This document shows positions 186-1,274 of a DNA stretch of 64,000 nt, one piece after another (position 1 is the first letter of the stretch; each line of letters begins with the position of its first letter). Location: positions 496,001-560,000 of the forward strand of contig NZ_FMYZ01000002.1 of assembly GCF_900101625.1 (NCBI RefSeq), read 5' to 3'. The notes below the pieces were generated by a model, which saw only the letters and a program-made list of their open reading frames with translations, was not told where the DNA came from and ran no database searches. A program made the translations under genes and the position numbers. Origin of the DNA: Cupriavidus sp. YR651. GTDB taxonomy: Bacteria; Pseudomonadota; Gammaproteobacteria; Burkholderiales; Burkholderiaceae.

Positions 186-835
186 GTGGACCCCCGAAAT
201 CTACACAACCAACGACAGACCCGAAATGGACTTGAAACAGCGGTGCGTGGCAGCCTTTGATGCGCGTCATCACGCCACGCGCAGCGGCAATGCTCGAAAA
301 ATGCAGGCGCCACTCTACCCCGGCCCTCGGCGCGCGGCAAGACACTCGCATACGTGCTGTCTCCGGCGCGCATCGCCGGCCCCGGGCGGCTGTCCACACA
401 GATACGGGACAGTGCTGTGGACCGGTTGTGGACAGCTGCCGGAAAAGCGCGCTAACCCCTTGATCGAAAAGGTAGTGGTCGCCTCTGCCACAAATTTAGG
501 CAATCGTGGCCAGGACGGGTAAACCGCTTGCTCGTGGCCTGCATGGTGCCGGTCCGCGCGGCGCGGCGGCTGGCAATCAGGTCTTTCCACAACCACGCGG
601 GACAGTGTTGTGGACCGGTTGTGGAAAGGTGGCTGAGAAGCCGCTCAAGTCATTGATCCGTAAGGGGGAAACTTCGGCTGCTTAAAAAACGTGCAAATGG
701 TCGCCGATGGCATGGCAGATGGCCCCTGGGCGGGCGACAGGGCTGAAAAAGGGCAGGTCGGTCGTTATCGATGAGGTGGCAATGGGAAAAGTCGCCCGCT
801 TTCCACACTGTTTCGGGACAGGACTGTGGAACGTC

Positions 836-844
836 TGTGGATAA
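836..844 (-). promoter_or_regulatory. Perfect DnaA box (TTATCCACA on the minus strand)
   Basis: The plus strand reads TGTGGATAA, the exact complement of the consensus DnaA box. It is the second TGTGGA motif of repeat unit 3, directly after a weaker TGTGGA at 825-830. Whether DnaA binds here is an inference. Confidence 0.5.
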
Positions 845-1045
845 AGCATGGAGAAGCGACGTAAACCATTGATCTGTATGGAGTGCCAGATTTTTGATTA
901 AAAAATAGGCAGAAATGGCCCTGGAAAACGGCAGTGCGGAGAGGTTGACATCGCTATCGCGGATCGTTGCTACAGCGCAAGTCGGGCACACTCGCGTGTA
1001 TTTTCCACAGCCCGGGCCCTTGACAGATGAATTATCCAAAGCTTC

Positions 1046-1054
1046 TGTGGATAA
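1046..1054 (-). promoter_or_regulatory. Perfect DnaA box in repeat unit 4
   Basis: The plus strand reads TGTGGATAA, followed by CTTTGTGAACAAG, which holds a weaker reverse box. TTTTCCACA at 1001-1009 in the same unit also fits the relaxed DnaA consensus, and TTATCC at 1032-1037 is inverted relative to GGATAA at 1049-1054. This is the densest group of DnaA-like sites in the block. Confidence 0.5.
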
Positions 1055-1274
1055 CTTTGTGAACAAGACTTGGGCGCTGGCGGTAAGTCGTTGACGCGTA
1101 AGGTTTTCTCTTCCGCTGCCACTTTTTTGGTCCGCCCGAAAAATCATAAGAATCAAAGGCTTGTACGGGTCCATGCGGGACTGGGCATAGCGCATGTGCC
1201 TTGCGCTATGCCTCTTGACATAGCGGTTATGCTGTGGACATGTCCATTCCACGCCGCCTGTGCGGCCGTGCGCC

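Follow-up and report, generated by a model that had tools for sequence, protein, structure and literature searches.

An array of four modules upstream of xseA

The window, i. e. the whole stretch of 64,000 nucleotides from Cupriavidus sp. YR651 that was analyzed, contains a noncoding gap with a gene of the ExbB type on one side (PF01618, scored on the longer frame of locus L001) and xseA (PF02601) on the other. This gap contains an array of four modules at positions 389-1160 on the forward strand. The original prediction had described four diverged units with a common order of elements and a period of about 200 bp; all of this is present in the sequence, the unit-to-unit spacings being 193, 216 and 202. 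The same holds for the perfect DnaA boxes claimed for units 3 and 4: TGTGGATAA is located at 836-844 and 1046-1054.

The block contains 11 TCCACA/TGTGGA hexamers, compared to 14 in all the rest of the window (63,228 bases). When the block was simulated 2000 times with a first-order Markov model, such hexamers averaged 0.43 and never numbered more than 3. In addition, both strands of the whole window were compared with a three-box template of 24 scored letters, in which box II starts 14 nt after box I and box III 12 nt after box II; it was picked after the units were known. The four top matches were the four units, with scores of 20, 20, 19 and 19, and the next-best match, inside unit 4 on the opposite strand, scored 16.

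Unit 4 (boxes at 1032-1066, forward strand) closely resembles the core of the E. coli DARS sites. It consists of a reversed box I, TTATCCAAA at 1032-1040, box II, TGTGGATAA at 1046-1054, and box III, TGTGAACAA at 1058-1066, and thus has the layout TTATCCAAA-N5-TGTGGATAA-N3-TGTGAACAA. An IHF-like site, TAAGTCGTTGACG (1084-1096, forward strand), with seven of the eight letters of TAAnnnnTTGAT, follows 26 nt after box III. An extra DnaA box, TTTTCCACA, which fits TTWTNCACA, lies ahead of unit 4 on the reverse strand (1001-1009) and is found in part of the genus.

Units 1-3 share another order of boxes on the forward strand: a reversed box I, GGGACAG after 14 nt, a forward box III after a further 12 nt and a forward box IV after 11 nt (9-mers, start to start). 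In unit 1 (390-435) these are box I at 390-398, the box II-like ACGGGACAG at 404-412, which is named by its position only, box III at 416-424 and box IV at 427-435. The corresponding positions are 583-591, 597-605, 609-617 and 620-628 in unit 2 (583-628), and 799-807, 813-821, 825-833 and 836-844 in unit 3 (799-844), whose box IV is the perfect TGTGGATAA. Together with the two bases before it, GGGACAG agrees with TGTGGATAA in only four of nine letters, and for this reason the 14 and 12 nt steps of units 1-3 depend on naming it a box. If this naming is right, GGGACAG would be a degenerate but conserved box II, as suggested by its position and by Burkholderiaceae modules which bear TGTTGACAG there. 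A description of units 1-3 as a separate geometry with steps of 26 and 11 nt was dropped in view of these modules with a better box II at the place of GGGACAG.

The IHF-like site and the Fis-like dyad both lie at fixed distances within the units. From the start of the last box (III in unit 4, IV in units 1-3) to the IHF-like site the distance is 26 nt in all units, and in units 1-3 the Fis-like dyad follows 34 nt beyond the IHF-like site. The IHF-like sites of units 1-3, all on the forward strand, are TAACCCCTTGATC at 453-465, which fits TAAnnnnTTGAT except for its last base (C, not A/T), CAAGTCATTGATC at 646-658 and TAAACCATTGATC at 862-874. All three end in C, and none of the IHF-like sites in the window fits the strict consensus. 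At the Fis-like position, unit 1 has an AT-rich dyad (487-501) which matches neither Fis consensus; the dyad of unit 2, GCTTAAAAAACGTGC at 680-694, fits the looser GNNYRNNNNNYRNNC, and that of unit 3, GATTAAAAAATAGGC at 896-910, fits both this and the strict GNNYANNNNNTRNNC. The strict IHF and Fis strings are those reported for DARS2 in PMC4245941. Strong Fis sites are described as having Y-R steps, G/C ends and an AT-rich center (PMC4784862). The list of elements given in the original prediction can be refined accordingly: GGGACAG occupies the place of box II, CATTGATC is the 3' part of the IHF-like site, and the AT-rich tract with GGCA is the Fis-like dyad.

These distances were examined in 97 units, namely 89 from 30 loci of the genus Cupriavidus, six from two loci of another genus, g24, and two from locus L095; offsets are given relative to the second base of box I. 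At offset +62, the looser IHF pattern YAAnnnnYTGAT was present in 90 of the 97 units and the strict TAAnnnnTTGATW in 44; within 150 nt, the IHF-like pattern occurred at no other offset. The looser Fis pattern GNNYRNNNNNYRNNC was found at +96 in 87 units and 63 times elsewhere, and the strict GNNYANNNNNTRNNC in 43 units and six times elsewhere. The pattern used to collect units 1-3 prescribes most letters of the boxes, whose invariance is therefore partly due to selection, whereas the IHF and Fis columns were free; in one locus, L013, this pattern recovered two of the three units.

Conservation and related modules

A DNA search in 60 genomes of the genus detected the block in 59; the one genome missed is an assembly of 54% completeness. 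A model built from 59 units (R1; its E-values are rough) matched 40 genus genomes in a sample of the family, three times in 39 of them and twice in one. It also matched 16 genomes of g24 (three times in 14, twice in two). Conservation in relatives, one of the checks named in the original prediction, is strong. In the genome of the window itself R1 gave no further match below E 0.1.

Thirty loci from the 59 matching genomes were examined closely. Across them the internal spacing of units 1-3 is ungapped. TCCACA, GGA.AG, both TGTGGA motifs and the AA and TG of the IHF-like site are invariant in 89 units (the box letters partly by selection), and most spacer columns carry less than 0.6 bits. Of 15 named loci found with xseA, 13 belong to Cupriavidus. 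The unit 4 core lies upstream of xseA in all 13, with three further units in 12 and, by the pattern used, two in L168. For 91 of 96 units the nearest neighbor in another genome was the unit at the same position, from which it follows that the array predates the spread of the genus. The arrays of g24 are more similar within themselves (0.70-0.81) than to those of Cupriavidus (0.65-0.70 at best), which suggests that they were homogenized or amplified separately. The corresponding gap of Paraburkholderia rhizosphaerae contains no unit and only one pair of forward boxes. Close to the start of xseA, TGTGGACA is present at 1233-1240 of the window; in most related loci compared, this string or its reverse occurs about 187 nt from the unit 4 core.

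The proteins expected to act on such elements are encoded in the same genome: IHF alpha, IHF beta and a Fis of 77 aa, which scored above its cut-off and whose gene lies between frames reading by eye as dusB and purH. Distances between array and dnaA were tabulated for 15 of 23 genomes; the assembly of the window has dnaA on another contig. In 12 Cupriavidus genomes the array lies on the same contig as dnaA at a distance of 405-809 kb (0.22-0.37 of the half-chromosome), and in three g24 genomes at 976-1001 kb (0.56-0.57). In E. coli the respective positions are 0.20 for datA, 0.41 for DARS2 and 0.66 for DARS1. The array thus has a conserved place between oriC and terminus, as expected of a DARS site. 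It is not oriC itself, which in this bacterial group usually adjoins dnaA; dnaA lies elsewhere.

Weak R1 matches in other Burkholderiaceae turned out to be modules with 14 and 12 nt steps at other loci, mostly with an IHF-like tail and several of them in tandem. A second model, R2 (its E-values, too, are rough), is based on 29 modules of Burkholderiaceae and was made without E. coli DNA. The input comprised 38 sequences, i. e. 24 of 25 tabulated modules (L110, a near copy, was left out) and 14 unit 4 rows. Of these, 35 were aligned and 29 kept; the rows dropped were L095 (misaligned), L114 (one-base insertion) and the unit 4 rows of L003, L013, L018 and L027. R2 matched unit 4 in its own genome with E 2.5e-16, but a copy of unit 4 is among the rows that built it. 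At E<=0.001 and with stricter filters, the matches listed came from 350 of the 399 genomes sampled in the order and from 225 of 274 in the class; these matches were mostly uninspected and may include clusters of the oriC type. Among 40 inspected loci, 38 matched the three-box template in 20 or more of its 24 letters, and the other two, L161 and L164, were without a good box I or II. At least six of the eight IHF letters were found exactly 26 nt after box III in 22 of the 40 loci and were lacking in 18.

A further test used neither model. Perfect inverted pairs TTATCCACA...TGTGGANAA with a gap of 2-32 bp occurred in 135 of 300 genomes of the order, and a control with reversed pattern gave none among the matches listed. 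In 108 such pairs, tabulated from the listed matches in 87 of the 135 genomes, the gap was 5 bp 73 times, 17 bp eight times, 18 bp eight times and of another length 19 times; the genomes are related and not independent, and a binomial p is therefore no real probability here. A gap of 5 bp is that of DARS, and 17 bp corresponds to the step from box I to box III.

Several single loci may be mentioned. In the genome of the window a perfect inverted pair, TTATCCACA-N5-TGTGGATAA, lies upstream of a cardiolipin synthase gene (G000:C25:125053-125075; L203 3054-3076) and is followed by a dyad, GCGCCTAAAAATGAGGC, that resembles those of the array. Its R2 match has an E of 0.01, and it is possibly a second DARS-like site of this genome. 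In L185 (G069:C2:1877500-1888500), on a contig of 2.6 Mb which is not the dnaA contig, a class A-type beta-lactamase gene and a LysR-type regulator are flanked by two clusters with nine modules in all. L187 (G492:C1:3638876-3639739), from a different family of the order, has six tandem modules after a DUF3299 gene. In L095 (G062:C19:127000-133500) two units are about 3 kb apart, and the coding sequence between them resembles by eye a tripartite transporter operon. Eight genomes of family f28 (G565, G594, G506, G433, G391, G536, G345, G471) have in common a perfect inverted pair with an 18-bp gap, a fixed geometry of a different kind.

Geometry shared with the DARS sites of E. coli

DARS1 and DARS2 reactivate DnaA, and the reactivation of ADP-DnaA is a main step of the initiation cycle of E. 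coli. According to a review (PMC5742627), boxes I-III have one and the same spacing in the two sites, with box I opposite, whereas the essential boxes of datA share one direction. Boxes I and II are reported to support a head-to-head dimer of ADP-DnaA (PMC8682772), and PMC4245941 describes the DARS2 core as conserved in gammaproteobacterial relatives of E. coli.

In MG1655 DNA, DARS1 reads TTATCCACT-N5-TGTGGATAA-N3-TGTGTATTA. DARS2 has two triplets, not one, with equal 14 and 12 nt steps and 316 bp apart (L119 1136-1170 and 1452-1486): the first is TTATTCACC-N5-TGTGGATAG-N3-TGTGAAGAA and the second TTATCCCAG-N5-TGTGGATAA-N3-GGTGTAAGA. Boxes II and III of the first triplet are listed as a double box bound by DnaA in ChIP-seq (PMC11317965, Table 1). 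Steps of 14 and 12 nt are common to DARS1, both DARS2 triplets and, with GGGACAG taken as box II in units 1-3, all four units of the array. The arrangement characteristic of DARS, three boxes of which the first runs opposite to the other two, is present in unit 4 and, only if GGGACAG is box II, in units 1-3. The arrangement of datA, with the essential boxes pointing one way around an IHF site, is not found; box I is opposed in every unit.

R2 was also applied, without filters, to 18,305 bases of E. coli. It ranked the first DARS2 triplet highest (18.8 bits, E 1.6e-5), followed by DARS1 (17.2 bits, E 5e-5). Lower scores were obtained for a site upstream of dnaA (11.4 bits), the second DARS2 triplet (10.8 bits on the opposite strand, only 6.7 bits in its own orientation) and datA (9.9 bits, a partial match); the dnaA-upstream site and datA thus come fairly close to DARS1. 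There is no synteny between the array locus and the E. coli DARS sites; they have no gene neighborhood in common.

The original prediction had proposed, as one of several possibilities, a DnaA-linked replication-control site, for which datA was named as the model, and had known of no named element that matches. A control site of this kind is still the reading best supported, but the DARS core, with its opposed box I and equal spacing, matches more closely than datA. An element of similar anatomy thus has a name in E. coli; in the literature searched, which was mainly open-access, we found no description of a DARS, a tandem DARS or a DnaA-box array in betaproteobacteria.

Possible functions and comparison with known systems

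We consider it probable, at roughly 60%, that the four modules form a DARS-like tandem site which controls the replication initiator DnaA. ADP-DnaA bound to boxes I and II would meet head to head. IHF and Fis would bend the adjoining DNA and aid, or gate, the assembly. The ADP would then leave, DnaA would be recharged with ATP, and initiation at oriC would be promoted, with an effect on its timing. As a guess, the weak but conserved box II may make units 1-3 dependent on IHF and Fis, and unit 4 could act as a stronger core.

The main rival is a sink like datA, in which the array would titrate DnaA or, with IHF, drive the hydrolysis of DnaA-bound ATP and thus delay initiation. Many boxes occur together, each unit has an IHF-like site, and the pairs III-IV and II-III point the same way with gaps of 2 and 3 bp; boxes III-IV would suit oligomers of one orientation, and double boxes with these gaps are reported to be bound by E. 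coli DnaA (PMC11317965). The chromosomal place does not discriminate, for the range of 0.22-0.37 overlaps the position of datA (0.20) as much as that of DARS2 (0.41). However, box I is opposed in the units, unlike in the essential boxes of datA as summarized in PMC5742627, datA gave only the partial match of 9.9 bits with R2, and Fis-like dyads are a feature of DARS2. We therefore regard a sink as rather unlikely, albeit a serious competitor.

Less likely still is that DnaA, with IHF and Fis, controls the transcription of xseA or the ExbB-type gene here and the state of DnaA is left unaffected. The array is directly upstream of xseA, and TGTGGACA near its start is similarly placed in related loci. 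In E. coli, too, each DARS site is upstream of a repair gene, DARS1 of uvrB and DARS2 of mutH (PMC11317965). Yet four modules over 770 bp exceed the needs of a promoter, and similar modules adjoin unrelated genes in other genera. A simple scan of 150-1400, which is weak evidence, found no sigma-70-like site.

Two further explanations have little to recommend them. A secondary origin, or a site coupling chromosome 2 to chromosome 1 with a crtS-like effect, would fit the two large replicons of Cupriavidus and the location of the array on the dnaA contig at a set distance, but dnaA and its adjoining DnaA-box cluster lie elsewhere, and we judge this very improbable. Hardly credible is a structured RNA or a set of hairpin small RNAs, for which the original prediction had left room and which we rejected: the hairpins it noted in units 1 and 2 do exist as inverted repeats (arms of 14 nt at 93% and of 12 nt at 100%), but complementarity beyond the boxes is not preserved in relatives, the helix drawn on units 1 and 2 showed 70.6% pairing compared to 70.4% after shuffling (59 units), two-sided changes affected five pairs with 6.0 expected from shuffles and thus gave no sign of covariation, no Rfam family matched in the window at the gathering threshold, and a simple scan of 150-1400 found no terminator-like site.

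If the array works as a tandem DARS-like site, as proposed, the step of DnaA reactivation would be much more widespread, and it could be built from repeated DnaA/IHF/Fis modules and recognized from sequence. This suggests that timing sites exist beyond the relatives of E. coli and can be arrays. More tentatively, and with less than even confidence, modules of the DARS type could be general in DnaA control across the class of beta- and gammaproteobacteria. Most Burkholderiales would then have one to eleven of them, single or arrayed, located on the main chromosome and perhaps on secondary ones too. The ATP-DnaA cycle would be tuned through array length, strength of box II and placement, which may also couple the chromosomes; in Cupriavidus, three amplifiers gated by IHF and Fis would supplement a core module. 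If the array works as proposed, it would offer a natural series in which box number, strength of box II and gating by IHF and Fis can be related to initiation timing in bacteria with two chromosomes.

Among the known systems, oriC shares DnaA boxes and an IHF site with the array, yet the array is 405-809 kb away from dnaA in the 12 Cupriavidus genomes. In datA, too, DnaA boxes are clustered in noncoding DNA together with an IHF site (PMC4585315), but its essential boxes have one direction and its match to R2 is partial and weak. DARS1, upstream of uvrB, has the three-box core with identical steps and is the second-best R2 match; unlike the array it is a single core, and no IHF site was found in it at up to one mismatch. 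DARS2, upstream of mutH, differs in several respects: the array combines three modules bearing IHF- and Fis-like sites with a core in tandem, has an extra box IV and a degenerate box II, lies beside xseA in a betaproteobacterium, and keeps its IHF-like site at a fixed 26 nt after the boxes, whereas the single IHF near-match found in DARS2 is on the side of box I and on the other strand. On the other hand, DARS2 shares with the array the opposed box I and the forward boxes II and III at steps of 14 and 12 nt, and contains two such triplets. Its boxes are described as adjoined by IHF and Fis sites (PMC4245941), to which the IHF- and Fis-like sites of the array, of looser form in the window, may correspond.
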